64,000 bases of DNA from Meiothermus cerbereus DSM 11376 (lineage in GTDB: Bacteria; Deinococcota; Deinococci; Deinococcales; Thermaceae): contig NZ_JHVI01000001.1 in assembly GCF_000620065.1 (NCBI RefSeq), positions 1 to 64,000 of the forward strand. The letters run 5' to 3'. Shown here piece after piece: positions 1 to 11,870 of the stretch (the stretch's first letter is position 1; the number at the start of each line of letters is the position of its first letter). Made by a program: the position numbers and the translations under genes. The notes under the pieces are model-generated. The model ran no database searches and had not been told where the DNA came from. It saw only the letters and a list, made by a program, of their open reading frames with translations.

Positions 1-318
1 TCAGGCGAACTTTAGGCTGGACGGTGCAGGTCATGCAGCGACCCGATGCCAACTTTCGCGGTATCTGGTGGCCCGATGAAAAACCCATCCCTGATGACTT
101 AGCCGAGGAGCTACTCAAGAAGACCCGAGGGCATCGTGGCTTTGTGGTCATCCCCAGGAGGTGGGTAGTGGAGCGCACCTTTGCCTGGCTAAGTTTCAAT
201 CGTAGGCTCAATCGGGACTACGAGTTCCTGCCCGAAACCTCAGAAACCTTTATCTACACGGCGATGATCCGACTTATGGTCAGAAGATTGGCTTCCTAGA
301 CGGTTTTAAGACAGTCTC
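1..318 (+). mobile_element. Right end of an IS5-family insertion sequence
   Basis: The window opens inside an IS. Its transposase stops at 299, and the next 20 bases (GACGGTTTTAAGACAGTCTC) look like the right terminal inverted repeat, ending near 318. The left end lies outside the window, so the inverted repeat and target duplication cannot be confirmed. Confidence 0.7.
3..299 (+). CDS. IS5-family DDE transposase, C-terminal part
   Basis: The frame is open from the left edge, so the true start lies upstream of the window. The visible 98 residues hold [11 protein letters not shown], then [13 protein letters not shown] and NRRLNRDYE. This is the pattern around the last catalytic glutamate (in VERTFAW) of IS5/IS427-type DDE transposases. 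The two aspartates of the triad would lie upstream. The C-terminus looks intact, so the copy may be complete. It could equally be a fragment of a two-ORF transposase, which this window cannot decide. Confidence 0.8.
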
Positions 319-463: not shown

Positions 464-1708
464 TTACCGCGGCACCCCCTGAATCGCCCCCGCGCGCAAG
501 CGTTGCAAAAACCTCACCTCCGGCAAACGCCCAGCCAGATACTCGCTCAGGTCGGGGGCTGCTTTGCCGGTTTGAATCATGCGGAAGAGCACCCAAAGCT
601 GCTCCAGGCGAATCTTGCCTTCGCGCCGGAGCTTCCCTATTTTTTGCAGGCGCGCATCCACCGGCCCCAGGGGCGGAACGCCAGGAATGGCCCCCGCCTG
701 TACCAGGCTCACAAACTGACCGCTGGTCAGGTTACCCGAGAGGTACAGCAGCAAATCCTCGGGCTGAACCCTGCCCTCCACCCGCTCTACCAGTGCATCG
801 AACTGCTCGCCAGAGATGTGGCCGGCCAGTTTGAGGCCTGCCAGTCGGCTTTTGGCTACTGCAAGGGGGTTGAGTGCCAGGGTGTAATCGTCGGGGCCGT
901 AGAGCTGGGGGGTTTGCGGCGTGCCCTTGCGCTGGCTGAAGGCCTCGACCTGCACGGCTGCATAGCGATACGCCTCGCCAATGGTTACGTAGCCGTCTCC
1001 ATTTGCATCGGCCTTACCCGAAATGGCCTCGAGCAAATAAGCGGTAAAGATACCGCCACCCACCTCGGCATCTTCCCAGCTGGGCTGGGTGTCGGCGGAA
1101 GAGGCCAGCAGCACATTGGCCCCGTTCAGGTCTGGTTTTTGCGGCTTGGGAAAACTTTTGCGACCCGGCATGGCGAAGCTGCGCGAGCCAGCAAGGGATT
1201 GTCCGCTAAAGCACGCATCCACAATCAGGATCAGGCGGCCTTTACCCTGGCTGGCCTTCCGCACAAGCTCCTGCAGCCAATCCAGGGGTAGCCAGGTTTC
1301 CTCGTCGTTGATTTTGGCGTCGCTGGGCATCAGGGCGGCCTGCCCCAGCCGGCTCGGCATCCCGTGGCCGGAGTAGTAGACGATGAGCGTATCGCTTATC
1401 CCCATGCGGCGGGCCAGGCCTCGGAGCTCGGCCTCGATAGCAGTCTTGCTGGCCTCGGTGTCCAGCAGTACCCGTACCTTGCTGAGCTGCCCCTTGTTGG
1501 GGTCTCGCAGGGCCTGGGCCATTTTGCGAGCGTCACTCTCGGCATAGCTAAGGGGAGGCAGGCTGGGGGTATCGGGGTAGGGCCGGTAGTTGTTAATTCC
1601 GATGACCAGGGCGTAGGTTTCTGGTTTGGGCATAGGCTGGGCGACACCCAGAGCCAGCATCCCCAGCCCTACCAGCCAGGTTACAAACAGGCTCGAGTTA
1701 TGCGGCAT
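464..1708 (-). CDS. Secreted caspase-like (metacaspase, peptidase C14) protein
   Basis: Predicted 414 aa. A signal peptide (residues 1-24) is followed by a caspase p20-like fold: ALVIGINNY near 33, catalytic His in YYSGHG (H115), catalytic Cys in VDACFSG (C166). A calcium-loop-like stretch, DANGDGYVTIGEA (234-246), comes next, then a C-terminal region with a recurring AGAIxGVP motif. The start at 1708 is preferred over 1738 because GGAGGG lies 9 nt upstream and the signal peptide begins there. Caspase-like enzymes with this dyad usually cleave after Arg or Lys. Export implies an envelope target. It is divergent from the CHASE2/FecR pair and probably belongs with it. The substrate is unknown. 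Confidence 0.85.
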   Translation of the reverse strand: MPHNSSLFVTWLVGLGMLALGVAQPMPKPETYALVIGINNYRPYPDTPSLPPLSYAESDARKMAQALRDPNKGQLSKVRVLLDTEASKTAIEAELRGLARRMGISDTLIVYYSGHGMPSRLGQAALMPSDAKINDEETWLPLDWLQELVRKASQGKGRLILIVDACFSGQSLAGSRSFAMPGRKSFPKPQKPDLNGANVLLASSADTQPSWEDAEVGGGIFTAYLLEAISGKADANGDGYVTIGEAYRYAAVQVEAFSQRKGTPQTPQLYGPDDYTLALNPLAVAKSRLAGLKLAGHISGEQFDALVERVEGRVQPEDLLLYLSGNLTSGQFVSLVQAGAIPGVPPLGPVDARLQKIGKLRREGKIRLEQLWVLFRMIQTGKAAPDLSEYLAGRLPEVRFLQRLRAGAIQGVPR

Positions 1709-1940
1709 AAGCGCAACCCTCCAAATATGGGCCTTCACCCCTCATTCCTTCGGGTTAGAGAGAGATGAAAGCAAGCTAAGCAATGCGCGAGACGGTGTTA
1801 ATCCAGCGAAAAGGGCGGATTTGTAGTATATCATGGTACAAACCCTTTCTTCACTGGCTTTTTGCTGTCCCAAAGGGCACTACTCTTAGTGCATGGCTTT
1901 TGTTTTCATACTAGATGTTGCGTAATTGGGCTGTTTCCGT

Positions 1941-3314
1941 ATGAACCATTCGGGGCCTGGCATCCCAGCAGGAGCAGGCAGGGACAATGTGGATAAACCA
2001 ATACCCACCCCCCCACCACGCCGCACCATGTCGCCATACGTTGGCAAAGCCCTCTGGCGCACCGGCCTGGTGGTGCTGGTGATGCTGATTTCTTCTTACA
2101 TTCTGAACAATAACCTGTTGGGGCCCTTTAGCGCGTTTATAAAGGGGCCGCAGGGGGCCTCGCTCGACCGGCTGGCGCGGGTGGTGCACCGCTGGGGCTC
2201 GCCAGTTCCGGTACGGGATTTTCCACTGGTGGTTCTGCTGGAGCTCGAGCAGCAAAGCATTACCCAGCTTAGCCCCGGCAGCAATGTCTTCCACCGGGGC
2301 CAACTGGCCCGCATCACCCGAAAAATTCTGGGCTACCAGCCCAAGGGCATCTTCCTCGACTTTGACCTGCGCTACCCCAGCAACGAAGGAGGGGTACGCT
2401 CGGCAGGCGACCAACAGCTCCTGGCGCTATTCAGGGAGGTGCGAACACCCCTACTGCTGCCCGACCCGGTGGCGCTGGGCCAACCCCTGAGCCGTCTAAA
2501 CCCCTTCCTGCACACGGTGCAGGCCCAGGTTTTCTACGATAGCGACGGGCAAACCCGCAAAATCCCCCGCCCCCGTCCGGGCCAGCCGCTCGCGGCCTCG
2601 CTGGGCCTGTACTGCCTGGGCCTGGGCATAGATCTGCGCGACGGCCATCGCTGTCAGCAGTCGGTGGCGCCGGGAAACCCCCGCTCGGATGGCAAACGCA
2701 TCGTCTACCGCGAGATTCGGCGCTTTGCGGCCAACGCCACTGGAAGCCAGCTCTGGCCCAACCTGGTGGTGATAAGCGGGCTGGATTTCCTTAACGACGG
2801 GCTGGTGCAGTCCGAGGCAACCCAGGGGGCTTTGTTCCTGGTGGGGCGCACCTACCCCCAGGCCGACGACGTACACTTCACGGCAATGGGGCCGGTGCAG
2901 GGTATAGACATTCACGCCAATGCCCTCCTGACCCTGGCTACCTACCGCAGTTTTTCCGAAACCCTGGGCTGGGGGCCGGTGCTGTTGGTGGTGCCGCTGG
3001 TGGTGTTTGTGGCCCTGTGGCTCACCTACAGCATCACCGATGGCTGGCTTCGGGCCAGCCGCTTCCAGGGCTTTGTGCAGGCCCTCATCGAAACCGCTGT
3101 GGCGGCCTGGTTCTTGTTTTTTGCCGGGGTGCTGATCTTGCAGTACACCGGCCACTTTCTGGATTACCTGTATCCCATTGTGGCTTTTCAGATGGGGGCC
3201 TTGCTCCTCAAGCTATTTGCCGGAGGGAAAAAAGATGAAAACAAAGCCAGCGATAAAGGCCAGGAAGTGGCCGACAAGCTCAAGGAGGTTGTCCAGGGTA
3301 CCGGCGATGGTTAG
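1941..3314 (+). CDS. CHASE2-domain membrane sensor without an output domain
   Basis: About 457 aa. A short proline-rich N-terminus and one membrane helix (near residues 40-58) lead into an extracytoplasmic CHASE2 domain (about 70-330; YQPKGIFLDFDLRYP and the late VQGIDIHANALLTL segment are typical). Three C-terminal helices end in GGKKDENKASDKGQ and a short charged tail. CHASE2 normally senses external signals for an attached kinase, cyclase or protease; here no catalytic domain follows. ATG 1941 was chosen; TTG 1926 and ATG 2028 are alternatives. It overlaps the next gene by 8 nt, so the two are probably translated together. Confidence 0.8.
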   Translation: MNHSGPGIPAGAGRDNVDKPIPTPPPRRTMSPYVGKALWRTGLVVLVMLISSYILNNNLLGPFSAFIKGPQGASLDRLARVVHRWGSPVPVRDFPLVVLLELEQQSITQLSPGSNVFHRGQLARITRKILGYQPKGIFLDFDLRYPSNEGGVRSAGDQQLLALFREVRTPLLLPDPVALGQPLSRLNPFLHTVQAQVFYDSDGQTRKIPRPRPGQPLAASLGLYCLGLGIDLRDGHRCQQSVAPGNPRSDGKRIVYREIRRFAANATGSQLWPNLVVISGLDFLNDGLVQSEATQGALFLVGRTYPQADDVHFTAMGPVQGIDIHANALLTLATYRSFSETLGWGPVLLVVPLVVFVALWLTYSITDGWLRASRFQGFVQALIETAVAAWFLFFAGVLILQYTGHFLDYLYPIVAFQMGALLLKLFAGGKKDENKASDKGQEVADKLKEVVQGTGDG

Positions 3315-4089
3315 ATTCCTGCTTGCCCTAGTAGGTTTGGGCGCAGTGGGTCTGGCCGAACCGGCCCGCTTAGAACTCAGCGGCAAGGCCCGCCTCGAGC
3401 GCCCCGACCAGACGGTACAGACCTATACCCGCAGCAGTGGCCCAGCGCTGGTGCTCAACCTCGAGGTCGGCGACCGTCTGTGCGTCACCCAAGGCAAGGG
3501 CCGCCTCCAGTATGGGGTGCGGGCTTTTACCCTGGAAGCCAGGGGAGCTGCATGCTTCGAGGTAGCCCGGCCCCGGTCGCTCTGGCAGAGCCTGGTGGCC
3601 AGTTGCCAGGACCTTGGGGTCTGCAAAAAGCAGGCCGAAGCCGCCTTCGTCAAGGAGGCCAGAAGCCGGGGCCTGGAGGAAAACATCCCGGTGCTGTACC
3701 TGCCCACCGACTACCGGCTGGAAACGCTGTATCTGGTTGTGGCCGCCGGACAAACCCTGCGCCTACTCGAAAACCAGAAGGAACTCGCCCGAATTGACGC
3801 CAGCAGCGAGGAGTTTGCAATTCCCAGTATCGTGCTGCGCAAAGCCACACACCTCGAGGTCAGCAGTCGCTCGGGGGTGGTGGTGTACCGGGCCCCCGTG
3901 CGCTGGGTACACCTTTTTGCCCAGGTGGAAGCCGAAACACCCCGCGAGGCCGCGCTGGCCCTCTGGCTTACCAGCCATATCGGCTATGCCCCCGCTGCCT
4001 ACAGTTACCTACTGGCTGCGGGCGAGAGCGAGCTGGCCCGTATCCTGGCAGCCCAGATTCGCCAGGAGTTCCGGGGAAGTTACCGCTAA
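3307..4089 (+). CDS. Exported FecR-like protein coupled to the CHASE2 gene
   Basis: 260 aa with a signal peptide (MVRFLLALVGLGAVGLAEPA). Residues about 20-85 (SGKARLERPDQTVQTYT, then VLNLEVGDRLCVTQGKGRLQY and FTLEARGAACFEV) resemble the FecR beta domain that reads periplasmic signals. The rest is not recognised. Its start overlaps the end of the CHASE2 gene. FecR and CHASE2 proteins often occur with caspase-like or CHAT proteases in other bacteria, which supports a link with the divergent metacaspase. The FecR call rests on pattern only and is moderate; the gene itself is secure. Confidence 0.7.
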   Translation: MVRFLLALVGLGAVGLAEPARLELSGKARLERPDQTVQTYTRSSGPALVLNLEVGDRLCVTQGKGRLQYGVRAFTLEARGAACFEVARPRSLWQSLVASCQDLGVCKKQAEAAFVKEARSRGLEENIPVLYLPTDYRLETLYLVVAAGQTLRLLENQKELARIDASSEEFAIPSIVLRKATHLEVSSRSGVVVYRAPVRWVHLFAQVEAETPREAALALWLTSHIGYAPAAYSYLLAAGESELARILAAQIRQEFRGSYR

Positions 4090-6221: not shown

Positions 6222-6905
6222 CTACTTGGTACAGTCCAGCTTGAAGCGTAAGCTGGGCGCGGGGGTAGAGTAGCTAACCCCCAGGTCGCGCTGTAACCTG
6301 CTGGGGTCAATTTCCAGCAGCAGCTTGGTGGGGGCTTCGGCTTTCGCAGTGTCGAACTTGATTTGATAGATTACGGCTGCGCCTTGGGCAATTTGCTTGT
6401 AGCGCAGCTCGCCCTCGTACTCGCGGCTGAGTGCGCTGGCATTGATGTTGGTAGTGCTACCATCAGCAAAAACCAGGCTCAGGCCCGACGAATCGCGCAC
6501 CCCGGTCTGGCCCGGCTCGAGCGTCCGATTTGTGCCGTTGCGCATCTCGAGGGTTACTCCCCAGCCCTTTAGCCCGAAGACTTCGATGGCCTCAACTTTG
6601 GTGACCCGGGCCCGCCAGATGCCGTTGAACAGCCACTCGTTCAGGCAGCCCTCGAGGCTGGCCCGCTGGTTGGCCCCTCCGGCAGCCTGGTTGCTCAGAT
6701 TGAGGGTACTCCCAGATAGGCTGGTGGTGATACCCAGTGCCTGTAAGGCGCTCACCGGCACGTAGCTTTGCCCATTCACCACGATGGCTTTGGCGTTGCT
6801 GGCCTGACCGTTGATGACCAGGTTGAGCTGCCGCTGTACGGCCTGGGCCAAAACCAGACCCAGTACCGCTACCATCAACCACGCAAGTAGTTTTTTCGCA
6901 TTCAT
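6222..6905 (-). CDS. Secreted protein with copper-amine-oxidase-N-like domain
   Basis: 227 aa with a signal peptide (to about LAQAVQ). Residues 30-75 (LVINGQASNAKAIVVNGQSYVPVSALQALGI in pattern) match the small stalk-like domain seen at the N-terminus of copper amine oxidases and of many thermophile envelope proteins. The C-terminal 140 residues form a predicted beta-rich domain with one Cys pair (C88, C225 approximately). It is the last gene of the SARP-led minus-strand run, 7 nt after the preceding gene. Substrate or partner unknown. Confidence 0.65.
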   Translation of the reverse strand: MNAKKLLAWLMVAVLGLVLAQAVQRQLNLVINGQASNAKAIVVNGQSYVPVSALQALGITTSLSGSTLNLSNQAAGGANQRASLEGCLNEWLFNGIWRARVTKVEAIEVFGLKGWGVTLEMRNGTNRTLEPGQTGVRDSSGLSLVFADGSTTNINASALSREYEGELRYKQIAQGAAVIYQIKFDTAKAEAPTKLLLEIDPSRLQRDLGVSYSTPAPSLRFKLDCTK

Positions 6906-6912
6906 ACAACAC

Positions 6913-7488
6913 CTATGGGTTTTGCACTTCCCCCATTGCCGTCAGGTAGGTCGCACTGAGGGTGCGTTTGGAAACTGTGCCTTGCACACCGCTATTCTCC
7001 TCGGCGATCAGGTAAAAGGTTTTGGGGCCAGCGCTGTCTACAGGAAACACCCGCTCGCTGCTAACGATGTAGCTGTAGTTCCACGCGGGCAACCCTGCGG
7101 GCAGCGAGATGCGCTTGTCCTGGTCGGGGCGGATGGTGTCGGGGGCATTGGTCACAGCCACTGTGAAGGTCGCGCTGCTGAGGCCGCTGTATTCAATGTT
7201 GAGTTGGGCGCTGGCGCTGACCTTGACGAACCCTGGCCCCGGTACGTTGATGCTCACGCTGGCCACGGCGGGGGTGGCGGCAGTTATGGCAACGGCCTCG
7301 GCAGCGGCGGTCTGGGCCACGCCGGGCAAAGCGTTGTTGAGCGCAGCAAAGTTGGCGTTAACCTCGGCAGCCCGGATGGGGCTGCCGGCGCTGAAGGTGT
7401 GCGGCAGGCTGATACCCGCCAGCGCACCCGCGCCAAGCAGCCCCAGGGCCAGGGCAAAAACAAGGTTACGAAGTTCTTTGGGGTTCAT
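6913..7488 (-). CDS. Secreted protein sharing the SPIRAAEVNANF motif
   Basis: 191 aa. A signal peptide is followed at about residues 32-48 by FSAGSPIRAAEVNANF, then an alanine-rich stretch and a beta-rich C-terminal domain. The next gene upstream has FTAGSPIRASEVNSNF at the same place after its own signal peptide, so the two share an N-terminal module. The ATG overlaps the stop of that gene (ATGA), so the pair is translationally coupled. No enzymatic motif is seen; a surface structural role is inferred. Confidence 0.65.
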   Translation of the reverse strand: MNPKELRNLVFALALGLLGAGALAGISLPHTFSAGSPIRAAEVNANFAALNNALPGVAQTAAAEAVAITAATPAVASVSINVPGPGFVKVSASAQLNIEYSGLSSATFTVAVTNAPDTIRPDQDKRISLPAGLPAWNYSYIVSSERVFPVDSAGPKTFYLIAEENSGVQGTVSKRTLSATYLTAMGEVQNP

Positions 7489-8480
7489 GGTACCTTCTTA
7501 ATCACCAAGACATTGAACTTGGCCCCAAAGGGCATATTGTTCCCATCGGCGCGGAAGATGAGCCAGCGCCCGGAGCCACTATCGTAGTAGACGCCAATGG
7601 GCGCGGTGATAAGGGGGTCAGTTGCGCTGATGACGTAGGTAACGACGAGCATGGCGTTGGGGTCGCCGTTGGTCATGGGGTTATCTATGATGGTACGGCT
7701 GGCGTCGACGTTGGTGGGAGTGGCGGTGTGGAGGAAGGCCGGTGCGTTGCCTCTTACCCCGATGCTGCCATCAATTAGTAAAGCGGTGCCCGCAAGAGAA
7801 GCCTTGGCCGAAACCCCAGCTCCAGGTCCAGCTTGGGACTCCCCTTCAACGCCTATGCCACTGTTACTGGAGATCCCCCGCACCCCCCAGCCCGTTCCTG
7901 GTACTCTTCCCAGCACCCCTGCTCCGAAATTGCCCTGCGCTTCGCCAGCGACCCCAACACCACTCCCGTCGGAGACTCCCCTCACCCCGTAGCCGGTCCC
8001 TGGGGTCTGCCCCAACACCCCCACACCCCCGCTGGTCTGCGTTTCTCCAAAAACCCCCACACCGGCTCCGATGGCGACGCCCCTTACCCCATAGCCCGTA
8101 GTGGCGACCTCGCCCTGGATGCCGGTGCTGTTGGTGGCTTCGTTGCGAACCTTGAAACCCGGTGCGGCGGCGTTGTTACCCGTAAGGTTGGCCCCAAAGG
8201 CCGCCCCGCCCGTCGCATCGCCCCAGACCAGGTTACCGCCCTGGGCCGTGAGCACCTTGCCATCCCCGATGGTTCCCCCAATCGCCAGGCGGCTGACCCC
8301 TACCGGCTGCTCGAGGGCCTGGATGGCGGTACGCAGAGTGGTGAAGTTGCTATTCACCTCGCTGGCCCTAATCGGCGAACCCGCCGTGAAGTCGGTCAGA
8401 GCCCCTACGCTGAGGCCCCACAGCCCCGCTGCCACACAACCTGCGCCCAGGGTAAAAAAGAAGAGGTTTTTTCCACGCAT
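7485..8480 (-). CDS. Secreted glycine-rich repeat protein
   Basis: 331 aa from ATG 8480, chosen because AAGGAG lies just upstream and a signal peptide begins there; the frame also runs open to 8609. After FTAGSPIRASEVNSNF (near 32-47) the centre (about 135-235) holds three repeats of about 33 residues, each with GYGVRGV or GWGVRGI, then GVGVxGE and GAGVLG-like steps. Such runs form regular beta structures in phage tail and surface proteins. It overlaps the next gene by 4 nt. Probably a surface-exposed structural protein; no homologue is named. Confidence 0.7.
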   Translation of the reverse strand: MRGKNLFFFTLGAGCVAAGLWGLSVGALTDFTAGSPIRASEVNSNFTTLRTAIQALEQPVGVSRLAIGGTIGDGKVLTAQGGNLVWGDATGGAAFGANLTGNNAAAPGFKVRNEATNSTGIQGEVATTGYGVRGVAIGAGVGVFGETQTSGGVGVLGQTPGTGYGVRGVSDGSGVGVAGEAQGNFGAGVLGRVPGTGWGVRGISSNSGIGVEGESQAGPGAGVSAKASLAGTALLIDGSIGVRGNAPAFLHTATPTNVDASRTIIDNPMTNGDPNAMLVVTYVISATDPLITAPIGVYYDSGSGRWLIFRADGNNMPFGAKFNVLVIKKVP

Positions 8481-8490
8481 AATTGCTCCT

Positions 8491-8622
8491 TTATTGCCAA
8501 GTGGCCGAGTCCCAATTGCTTCGATCCCACACCCCAGCGCTGCTGCTACCGCCACCACCCCCACAGGCGGCCAGCAATACCAGTAGTAGAGCCAGGGCCA
8601 GCTTCCCAAGGTTTCTTCTCAT
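8491..8622 (-). CDS. Small lipoprotein (43 aa)
   Basis: The frame is open from 8727, but ATG 8622 is supported by AAGGAG at the right spacing. It gives MRRNLGKLALALLLVLLAAC followed by GGGGGSSSAG: a textbook signal peptide with lipobox LAAC and a short glycine/serine linker. The mature part is only about 24 residues and ends DRSNWDSATWQ. It sits 10 nt before the repeat protein gene, in the same run. Possibly a surface anchor or small assembly factor for its neighbours. Confidence 0.6.
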   Translation of the reverse strand: MRRNLGKLALALLLVLLAACGGGGGSSSAGVWDRSNWDSATWQ

Positions 8623-8870: not shown

Positions 8871-11870
8871 TCAGTGGATCGTCATTAACCGACGGGCCTC
8901 AATTTTGGCCTGGGTGACGGAGCGAAAACGGTTGATGCTCGCGCGCAAGGCCAGGGCCTGCTGCAGGTCTTCTTCAGCTTTCACCGGTTCGCCCAAAGCC
9001 AGCCAAGCCCCGCCGCGGCTGAACAGGGCGTTAATCCGGTTAACGAGGTTGCCCCTGGCATCCTGAAGGGCCTGCTCAGCCAGGCGCAGGGCGGCCTTGG
9101 GGTTGTTTTGCAGAAGCTCGAGCTCGGCGTAAAGCTGCCGCACCTCCGACCAGCCCCAGTTAAGAGCCTGGGCCAGCTCGAGGCCGCGCTCCAGATCCTG
9201 GGTGACCTGGGCGGTGTCGCCCAAACCCAACCCAGCCTCGGCCCGCACCAGCAAGGCGACCAGCTCCTGCCGCTGTACCCCACCTTGGCGCGCCTTCTCG
9301 AGCAGAGGCTCGAGCTGGGGGGCCACCTCGGCAAATCGTCCCAGGCTGTTCAAAACCCGCGCCCGCACAATGCCAATGCGCTCTTGCAACAACCAAAAAT
9401 CCGAAGGCGCGGGGCCGTGCTGCTGCATCAGGGTTTCGGCTTCCGCCAGCAAGTCCAGCGCCGCCTGGGCTTGTTGCTGCAGCATCAGGGTCAGGCTGTG
9501 GCAGACTTGGGCCTCGACGGTGTAGAAGGGCGATAGCCCCGAGGCCAACTCAAATAACTGCTGCCCATCCCGCATGGCTTCCTCAAGCAGCCCCAAATCG
9601 CGCTGATAATGGGTCACAAATACCAAGGGATAAAAGGCCTCAGCTACCGAGACTTGAAGGGCAAACGCATAGGCCCGCCAACTGGCTTCCATCGCACCCA
9701 AAAGGTCTTGCTGGTCGTCGAGCACCATCCCCCGGTAAAACCAGACGTTGGAGCGCTCTCGAGCGGTTTGGGCATTGCGCTGCAAAACATCGAGTAGCTC
9801 GAGCTGTTGCTCGAGGCAGGTCGTCCCGGTTTGTCGACCCAGATAAAAGCGCTGGTTGAGAAGCTCGAATCGCTCTGGATGCTCCGGCGGCAGGGCTTCC
9901 AGGGCCAAACCATAGTAGATATCCGCCTCACGAAAAGCCAGCACTGCGCGGGCCTGAAGGGCGGCTTTGTGCCACCAGCCGGCCGCCTGCTCGAGCTGGC
10001 CTGCAGTTTGAAAATAACCCGCTACCCTGGCCGGATGCACGGCTTGTCCGGCATAGTGCCGGGCCAGACGGGCCGAGATGAGGCGCTTGCGGTCGGGTTT
10101 GAGGGATTCGGCAATCGTACGGGCGATCAGGTCGTGACTAAAGCCATAGCCCTGTGCGGTGGCCTCGAGCAGCCGGGCTTGAGCGGCCCGCTCGAGGGCC
10201 TCGCAAACCTCCCAGTCTGAAAGGGCAGTGGCCTCGGCCAGGGTTTTTGAATCAAAACTGCTGTCGGCAATTAGTGCGGCCACCTCCAAGCAGCGCCGCA
10301 CCGCCGCCCCCTGGCGCTCGAGGCGGCCCAGGATGGTCTGGCGCACGCTGGGGGCAATCTGCAACTCGGTATAGTCGTGGGTAGCCTCGTCGTATGGGGT
10401 CTCCCAGACCCCACCCTCACCCAACCGCAACTCGCCCAATTCAAACAGGCTCTGCAGGGTCTCGAGCACGAAAAGTGGGTTGCCCGAGGTTACCTGGTAG
10501 ATCCGCCGGGGGAACAAACTAGCCGGACGTCCCGAGAGATGGGCAATTAGCTCGGCGACTGCAAGCTCGCTCAGGGGCTCGAGGTCGAACCATTGCGCCA
10601 CTCTGCTGCTGCACCAGTCTGCATAGCGCTTGGCTACCTCGGGCAGCAGCTCTTCAGGTCGAAAGGTGGCCACCAAGCGTATCGCCCCCCGCCCAGCCGC
10701 CAACACCCGCAGGCTCCAGGGGTCGCTGTAGTGTTCGTCTTCGCTCAGGAAGGTGCTACAGCCGTAGGCCTGAGTCAGCAGCTCCAACAGGGCTGAAAAG
10801 AAGCGCACCTGGGTGCTTTCTTCCAAAGGGGGCGGAAGGGTGGGCGAGAGCTCGGGCAGTAGACGGGCCGCCTCGAGACGCACCCAGGGTTTGAGCCTGA
10901 CCTTTGGGTTGGCCCGCAAAGCCTGTCGCAGCCAGCGGCTCATGGAGGCATAGGGGGTCTGGGTCTCTTCCGGCTGGCCTGAGAGCACGGTGTAGGAGCC
11001 CTGGCGGGACAAAAACGCTTCCGCAAGCCGACTCTTGCCTATGCCCGCAGGACCTGCCAGCAGCAGTGTTTTTCCGTCTTGCCAGGCTGCTTGCATTCGC
11101 TGGAGGGTGTCTTCCCGCCCCACCAGAGGCGGCTTATGGGCGAGACTGCGGTAGGATTGTGGCTTCGCAGCAGGGGCAGATGGGCGCAGGCGGATTTGCT
11201 CGGCCAGTGCCTGGATTTCGGGGAGGGGCTCCAGGGCCAACTCGCGCTCCAACACCCTTTGGAGCTGCTGATACTGGGCCAGGGCCCGCTCCGGTTGGCC
11301 CAAAGCTGCATACAATCGCATCACATCACGGTAAAGCTGCTCTTGTAGTTCATCACAGCGAAGCAGCTCGAGGTAGAGTTCCAGGGCCTGTTGCAGCGCT
11401 CCCTGGGCCTCGAGGTCCCTGGCTTGCGCCCGCATGGCCGCTTGCAGTTGTTCCCTCAGCCGTTCGCGCTGTTGACCCAACCACAACGTATAGGCTTCCT
11501 CCTCCAGCTCCCAGCCTTGCAAAAACTCCCCCCGGTACAGCCGCCGGGCCTCTGCCCAGTGGCCCGCCTCCACCTGCTGCCGAAACTCAATCACATCCAG
11601 CGCAAAGCCAGCATGGAGCTCGAGCCAGCTACGACAGATATGCAGTTGGCTGTGCAGTGGGGTTTTGGTCAGTTGGTAGAGGGTCTGCCGCAGGCTATGC
11701 TGTCCTTTGGCCTCCGGCAGACTTCCCCACAGCAGCTCCACCAGTCGGCCGCGTTCGCTGCGACCCTCGAGGGCCAGGTAGGCCACCAGCGCCACCGCCT
11801 TGCGGGGCAGCACCAGCTCGTGTTCTATATGCACAACCTGTGGAGGCCCTAGCAATTCCAGCCGCAACAT
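8871..11870 (-). CDS. SARP/AfsR-like regulator (BTAD-AAA-TPR)
   Basis: 999 aa. Residues 1-95 form a winged-helix DNA-binding domain (LPRKAVALVAYLALEG, then LVELLWGSLPEAKGQHSLRQ). A bacterial transcriptional activation (BTAD) domain spans about 96-230. A P-loop NTPase follows, with Walker A GPAGIGKS at 273-280 and a Walker B-like stretch near FLSEDEHYSDPWSLRVL. The last 400 residues are TPR-like helical repeats. This is the layout of SARP/AfsR and related activators. GGAGG lies 6 nt before ATG 11870. It heads a tight same-strand series of secreted-protein genes down to 6222, its most likely targets by position. Confidence 0.85.
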   Translation of the reverse strand: MLRLELLGPPQVVHIEHELVLPRKAVALVAYLALEGRSERGRLVELLWGSLPEAKGQHSLRQTLYQLTKTPLHSQLHICRSWLELHAGFALDVIEFRQQVEAGHWAEARRLYRGEFLQGWELEEEAYTLWLGQQRERLREQLQAAMRAQARDLEAQGALQQALELYLELLRCDELQEQLYRDVMRLYAALGQPERALAQYQQLQRVLERELALEPLPEIQALAEQIRLRPSAPAAKPQSYRSLAHKPPLVGREDTLQRMQAAWQDGKTLLLAGPAGIGKSRLAEAFLSRQGSYTVLSGQPEETQTPYASMSRWLRQALRANPKVRLKPWVRLEAARLLPELSPTLPPPLEESTQVRFFSALLELLTQAYGCSTFLSEDEHYSDPWSLRVLAAGRGAIRLVATFRPEELLPEVAKRYADWCSSRVAQWFDLEPLSELAVAELIAHLSGRPASLFPRRIYQVTSGNPLFVLETLQSLFELGELRLGEGGVWETPYDEATHDYTELQIAPSVRQTILGRLERQGAAVRRCLEVAALIADSSFDSKTLAEATALSDWEVCEALERAAQARLLEATAQGYGFSHDLIARTIAESLKPDRKRLISARLARHYAGQAVHPARVAGYFQTAGQLEQAAGWWHKAALQARAVLAFREADIYYGLALEALPPEHPERFELLNQRFYLGRQTGTTCLEQQLELLDVLQRNAQTARERSNVWFYRGMVLDDQQDLLGAMEASWRAYAFALQVSVAEAFYPLVFVTHYQRDLGLLEEAMRDGQQLFELASGLSPFYTVEAQVCHSLTLMLQQQAQAALDLLAEAETLMQQHGPAPSDFWLLQERIGIVRARVLNSLGRFAEVAPQLEPLLEKARQGGVQRQELVALLVRAEAGLGLGDTAQVTQDLERGLELAQALNWGWSEVRQLYAELELLQNNPKAALRLAEQALQDARGNLVNRINALFSRGGAWLALGEPVKAEEDLQQALALRASINRFRSVTQAKIEARRLMTIH

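Follow-up and report, generated by a model that had tools for sequence, protein, structure and literature searches.

The region described here lies near the start of a 64,000-nucleotide stretch of Meiothermus cerbereus DSM 11376 (contig NZ_JHVI01000001.1, positions 1 to 64,000; this whole stretch is referred to as the window). Three genes were annotated between positions 464 and 4089, encoding a predicted exported caspase, a CHASE2 membrane protein that is divergent from it, and a predicted exported protein, referred to as the partner, whose gene overlaps the end of the CHASE2 gene. These three genes form one inherited module in the Thermaceae. The features annotated are the following:

464 to 1738, minus strand: C14 caspase (orthocaspase), predicted exported, identified by Pfam C14, the catalytic dyad, a hydropathy signal peptide and Foldseek
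1777 to 1836, no strand: conserved stretch between the two divergent genes, probably a control region common to both, identified by identity with seven relatives
1989 to 3314, plus strand: CHASE2 membrane protein lacking an output domain, identified by Pfam CHASE2, the transmembrane pattern and a conserved GTG start region
3307 to 4089, plus strand: predicted exported CHASE2 partner of 260 residues with a beta domain, an Ig-like segment and C-terminal helices, identified by a signal peptide and a structure model

An earlier note on this DNA had described a caspase-fold protein with a His/Cys dyad and a signal peptide, back to back with a CHASE2 protein that has no output domain and overlaps an exported FecR-like protein. 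The first two descriptions hold, whereas the third stands for the overlap and the predicted export but not for the FecR likeness.

The caspase matches Pfam C14 above the cut-off (E=1.1e-19) and has a length of 424 residues if translation starts at GTG 1738 or 414 residues if it starts at ATG 1708. It consists of a signal peptide, a caspase domain (residues 42-279) and a duplicated helical region at the C-terminus (residues about 290-424). The N-terminal segment is signal-peptide-like in hydropathy, and the enzyme is thus predicted to be extracytoplasmic rather than cytosolic. The dyad His125/Cys176 is intact and invariant in all nine orthologues aligned, as are several acidic residues and an EF-hand-like loop from D244 to E255 (D244, N/D246, D248, G249, E255); the acidic residues and the loop only suggest cleavage after Arg or Lys and an effect of calcium. 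A structure model with a predicted local distance difference test (pLDDT) score of 63.6 retrieves MALT1, caspases and metacaspases in Foldseek. In the C-terminal 135 residues a helical unit of about 65 residues occurs twice, and none of 2000 shuffles gave an equally good repeat; Pfam assigns no family to this region (464-868, minus strand). Each copy closes with AGAI-x-GVP, and GVPR at the extreme C-terminus is invariant in eight of the nine orthologues. The caspase scores 104.8 against the NCBIfam model of EACC-associated caspases (NF047832), below its cut-off of 140.

CHASE2 (E=1.3e-15) is the sole Pfam family found in the second protein. Its open reading frame as listed opens at TTG 1926, and GTG 1989 is the likely start because relatives conserve this codon and the sequence around it. 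Hydropathy indicates one N-terminal and about three C-terminal transmembrane segments followed by a short cytoplasmic tail, and Pfam detects no cytoplasmic output domain such as a kinase, cyclase or GGDEF/EAL domain. The Meiothermus proteins finish with a charged tail of roughly 30 residues, which differs or is almost missing in Calidithermus.

The partner gene starts at ATG 3307 inside the end of the CHASE2 gene, with an overlap of 8 nucleotides (ATGGTTAG), which suggests coupled translation. Its product carries a signal-peptide-like N-terminus in hydropathy and is predicted to be extracytoplasmic. Four cysteines (C59, C83, C100 and C106) are invariant in the 12 Thermaceae rows of the alignment, and in the structure model (pLDDT 68.6) a beta domain at the N-terminus leads into an Ig-like segment and then three helices. 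The identification of this gene as FecR was rejected: Pfam gave no match up to E=1, either to the FecR domain (PF04773) or to any other family, in four members and two Deinococcus homologues, NCBIfam did not support the label, and comparison of the partner profile with FecR domains of the same phylum by hhalign returned a probability of 0.2. Sequence searches of the PDB with the partner and with the CHASE2 protein gave nothing significant.

The spacer between the caspase and CHASE2 genes contains a block of 60 base pairs (1777 to 1836) in which 40 to 53 of the 60 bases are identical to those of seven relatives, compared with 45-68% identity at the four-fold sites of the flanking genes. This block is a probable shared control region, judging from its conservation, which does not prove co-regulation. 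A sigma-70 promoter scan of the spacer found nothing, and an imperfect inverted repeat noticed by eye is not put forward as an operator, its right side not being conserved in two genomes (G005 and G011).

A total of 50 Thermaceae genomes were searched with each of the three proteins. All three genes were found in the same ten genomes, eight Meiothermus and two Calidithermus, and none of the three was found intact in the other 40, so that the linkage the earlier note had proposed to look for is present. The sole exception is a lone C-terminal fragment of the partner in G001 (L115:7779-8018, minus strand), a genome with neither caspase nor CHASE2, and this fragment is likely a remnant of a lost module. 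In Meiothermus the caspase is divergent from the CHASE2-partner pair in one block, the caspase being cut by a contig break in two of the eight genomes; the genome of the window (G000, 3.03 Mb) has a single C14 protein and a single CHASE2 protein, adjacent to each other. The module genes are rearranged in Calidithermus, where at one locus a caspase of the window type faces a partner gene. At a second locus an operon encodes a WD40-PEGA-caspase, a caspase-DUF4384 protein, CHASE2 and the partner, with a DUF4384-PEGA-caspase in addition in G003, and all three caspases of this operon are predicted to be exported. In the Thermaceae genomes scanned, every intact CHASE2 of the window type adjoins a gene for an exported clan-CD protease.

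The block has been gained and lost repeatedly. A proxy tree, in which one neighbouring TRAP-transporter protein stands in for the species and the count of changes is therefore rough, requires seven changes, of which well-supported branches make at least four unavoidable; the joint presence or absence of the three genes is independent of this count. In G015, G016 and G018 the module is flanked by an Amidase_3 gene and a Na/Ca-exchanger gene, and in the module-free genomes G009 and G013 these flanks are about 20 and 150 base pairs apart, which represents the empty site. A methyltransferase, an AMP-binding enzyme, a short-chain dehydrogenase or a transposase occupies the site in some species. Among these occupants is a Type II DNA methyltransferase gene of the Eco57I/TaqI type in the module-free G008 and G017 (L181:10578-12146; L182, gap 9786-11489), and no convincing match to module remnants was found in this gap. 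In the window, a C-terminal fragment of an insertion sequence (IS) transposase (DDE_Tnp_1_2; 24-299, plus strand) lies at the contig start directly past the 3' end of the caspase gene, at the position held by the Amidase_3 gene in relatives.

Outside the family, a CHASE2 profile search of genome contigs found relatives only in Meiothermus and Calidithermus. Other phyla were sampled through plasmids, where tblastn with the window CHASE2 retrieved two Deinococcus plasmids only (30% identity, no output domain) and tblastn with the partner retrieved none. Downstream of each Deinococcus CHASE2 gene lies a partner homologue (hhalign 97.9 and 98.8%). In the D. taeanensis plasmid, a TPR-CHAT protein, another type of clan-CD protease, faces the CHASE2-partner pair; the annotated start of this CHAT protein (WP_225523328.1; L101:7104-9515, minus strand) appears too late, as the upstream frame encodes a clear signal-peptide-like segment. 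In the Deinococcus NW-56 plasmid, the pair is followed by a convergent WD40-caspase gene, with a caspase-DUF4384 gene near and a NACHT gene in the cluster. Finally, a second locus of G011 encodes a CHASE2 protein, an exported protein and an exported TPR-CHAT. Caspase and CHAT are therefore exchanged as the protease beside the CHASE2-partner pair, every protease examined (window type, WD40-, PEGA- and DUF4384-caspases and TPR-CHAT) has a signal-peptide-like N-terminus, and no CHASE2 output domain was found in Meiothermus, Calidithermus, Deinococcus or the second G011 locus.

CHASE2 proteins with a cytoplasmic output, such as a kinase or cyclase, were also observed beside exported proteins. Other families of the phylum have exported FecR genes next to CHASE2 genes, and the complete CHASE2 genes encode PAS and histidine-kinase domains after CHASE2. 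In the Proteobacteria, the gene ahead of CHASE2 is annotated as FecR in Paraburkholderia, Eleftheria and Methylocystis, and in Rhizobium a CHASE2-EAL gene has a gene for an unannotated exported protein ahead of it. CHASE2 and its exported partner thus look like a constant sensory unit of which the output changes.

The reading that we favor, at a probability of about 0.55, is that the CHASE2-partner pair controls the exported caspase and leads to limited proteolysis in the envelope. The CHASE2 protein and the partner would form a sensory pair in the envelope, as pairs of the CHASE2/FecR type appear to do elsewhere, and the output of this pair would be an exported caspase-fold protease, in the periplasm or at the surface, in place of a cytoplasmic kinase or cyclase. 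The membrane-anchored complex would draw in the caspase, hold it in check or switch it on, perhaps with calcium at the EF-hand-like loop involved in its control, and the caspase would then cut envelope proteins by limited proteolysis. The domain architecture, the conserved linkage, the joint inheritance and the exchange of protease types are established, and export is predicted from hydropathy. We infer the physical interaction, the direction of the signal, the protease activity, its substrates and the outcome, and likewise the envelope surveillance or programmed response that the earlier note had suggested. Several observations weigh against this reading. At the Calidithermus locus where the caspase of the window type adjoins a partner gene, both lie away from CHASE2. 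The partner is not detectably FecR, so that the comparison with FecR-CHASE2 pairs is drawn from gene position, export and architecture; the middle protein of the second G011 locus is weakly similar to the partner; and the structure models are of modest confidence (63.6 for the caspase and 68.6 for the partner). More tentatively, and with somewhat less than an even chance of being right, we propose a Deinococcota family of sensory systems whose receptor, adaptor and executioner protease would all be extracytoplasmic, with caspase and CHAT as exchangeable outputs, and which would carry out receptor-controlled proteolysis of the cell's own envelope.

The gain and loss of the block at a site that holds a Type II DNA methyltransferase gene in two other genomes would also suit a programmed death or abortive response, in which envelope damage, a phage or a neighbour's signal causes the exported caspase or CHAT protease to dismantle the envelope and kill the cell, as an extracytoplasmic counterpart of the cytosolic caspase conflict systems. 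Caspases are parts of bacterial conflict systems (PMC8195603), and the patchy distribution of the module and the NACHT gene of the Deinococcus NW-56 cluster point in the same direction. However, PADLOC matches the module genes only with its generic caspase model, over partial length, and matches neither CHASE2 nor the partner; the site is chromosomal with flanking genes of housekeeping type, and an exported protease fits the cutting of the envelope better than cytosolic suicide. We therefore regard this explanation as unlikely.

A reversed direction of signalling appears less likely still. Here the exported caspase would be the sensor or trigger and would cut the partner or the ectodomain of CHASE2, which would in turn relay a signal into the cell, by way of its transmembrane helices or short tail, to a cytoplasmic protein encoded elsewhere. 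The three C-terminal transmembrane segments retained by CHASE2, the charged tail in Meiothermus, and the caspase and partner still paired at the Calidithermus locus without CHASE2 are consistent with such a route, but the tail is short, is not maintained in Calidithermus, and no cytoplasmic output gene is common to the module neighbourhoods across the loci. That the caspase and the CHASE2-partner pair are independent neighbours, travelling together through an accessory site between the amidase and exchanger genes, is improbable: linkage alone is no proof of joint function and the site takes up other genes in some species, but Calidithermus, Deinococcus and the second G011 locus show the association again, with the genes differently ordered and oriented and with other types of protease, the scanned Thermaceae have no intact window-type CHASE2 apart from an exported clan-CD protease gene, and four unrelated window-like caspases on plasmids of other phyla were inspected and had no CHASE2 nearby.

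Most discussion of bacterial caspases treats them as cytosolic agents of cell suicide. If control of the exported caspase by the CHASE2-partner pair is correct, caspase-type execution can sit in the envelope, coupled to a receptor that lacks a cytoplasmic output, and CHASE2, a receptor domain whose signals have been described as unknown (PMC5192318), gains a new kind of partner. This suggests a little-known route by which bacteria act on their own envelope through controlled protein cutting. Because the module is small, can be dispensed with and comes from a thermophile, three genes and stable proteins would suffice to test the question.

Other genes were noted in the window and in related genomes. 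Three consecutive genes with signal-peptide-like starts, the last with a DUF7452 domain, lie at 6222-8609 on the minus strand of the window and adjoin a large BTAD/AAA regulator (8871-11870). Two further caspase proteins, a caspase-DEAD helicase fusion in G005 (L053:8031-11069) and a caspase-DUF7379 protein beside a CHAT gene in G003 (L054:6427-9894), have no obvious signal peptide ahead of the caspase domain.

A survey in 2012 reported no caspases in Deinococcus-Thermus (PMC3501461). In the open literature, which was the range of our search, we found no paper on the three genes together or on Meiothermus caspases, in agreement with the earlier note, which had regarded the system as undescribed for the Thermaceae. 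That note had also stated that CHASE2, FecR and caspase/CHAT domains co-occur in other phyla, often fused; fusions of CHASE2 with caspase and operons of FecR with CHASE2 have been published. The metacaspase of Trichodesmium erythraeum is a caspase-CHASE2 fusion with the caspase read as cytoplasmic (PMC3501461, PMC2853523), and EACC2 systems carry a C-terminal CHASE2 (PMC8195603). The Meiothermus module resembles these fusions in coupling a C14 caspase to a CHASE2 receptor domain; however, the fusions are single proteins with a caspase predicted to be cytoplasmic, whereas the Meiothermus genes are separate, the caspase is predicted to be exported and an exported partner is added.

The module also resembles FecR-CHASE2 operons, such as the LysM-FecR and CHASE2 histidine kinase operon of Burkholderia (PMC5192318), where an exported protein is encoded beside a CHASE2 membrane protein. 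These operons have a cytoplasmic kinase or cyclase and a Pfam FecR domain, neither of which was found in the Meiothermus module, and the module adds a clan-CD protease. MtxA of Magnetospirillum is an exported protein encoded beside a CHASE2 adenylate cyclase, in which TPR helices come after an Ig-like domain (PMC4439547; PDB 4z29). The partner gene likewise lies beside CHASE2, and a low-confidence model of its product suggests a similar layout, with a beta-rich N-terminus, then an Ig-like domain and then helices at the C-terminus. On the other hand, a sequence match between the two is not detectable, the structural match to 4z29 is weak (E 0.056), and the neighbour of MtxA has a cyclase output; the likeness is thus a low-confidence lead and not an assignment to the MtxA group. 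The p42e plasmid of Rhizobium etli (L194:1217-11002) carries a cluster of an exported DUF4384 protein, a caspase, a trypsin-caspase-DUF4384 protein, a serpin and a serine/threonine kinase, which has the look of a further cascade of exported proteases and may include an inhibitor. It is similar in that a single cluster encodes exported clan-CD proteases together with DUF4384, and it differs in having the serpin and the kinase but no CHASE2 or partner. Among these systems the pairings of CHASE2 with caspase and of FecR with CHASE2 are already known (PMC3501461, PMC8195603, PMC5192318), and what is new in Meiothermus is the split arrangement of the three proteins, with all of them acting, as predicted, only outside the cytoplasm.

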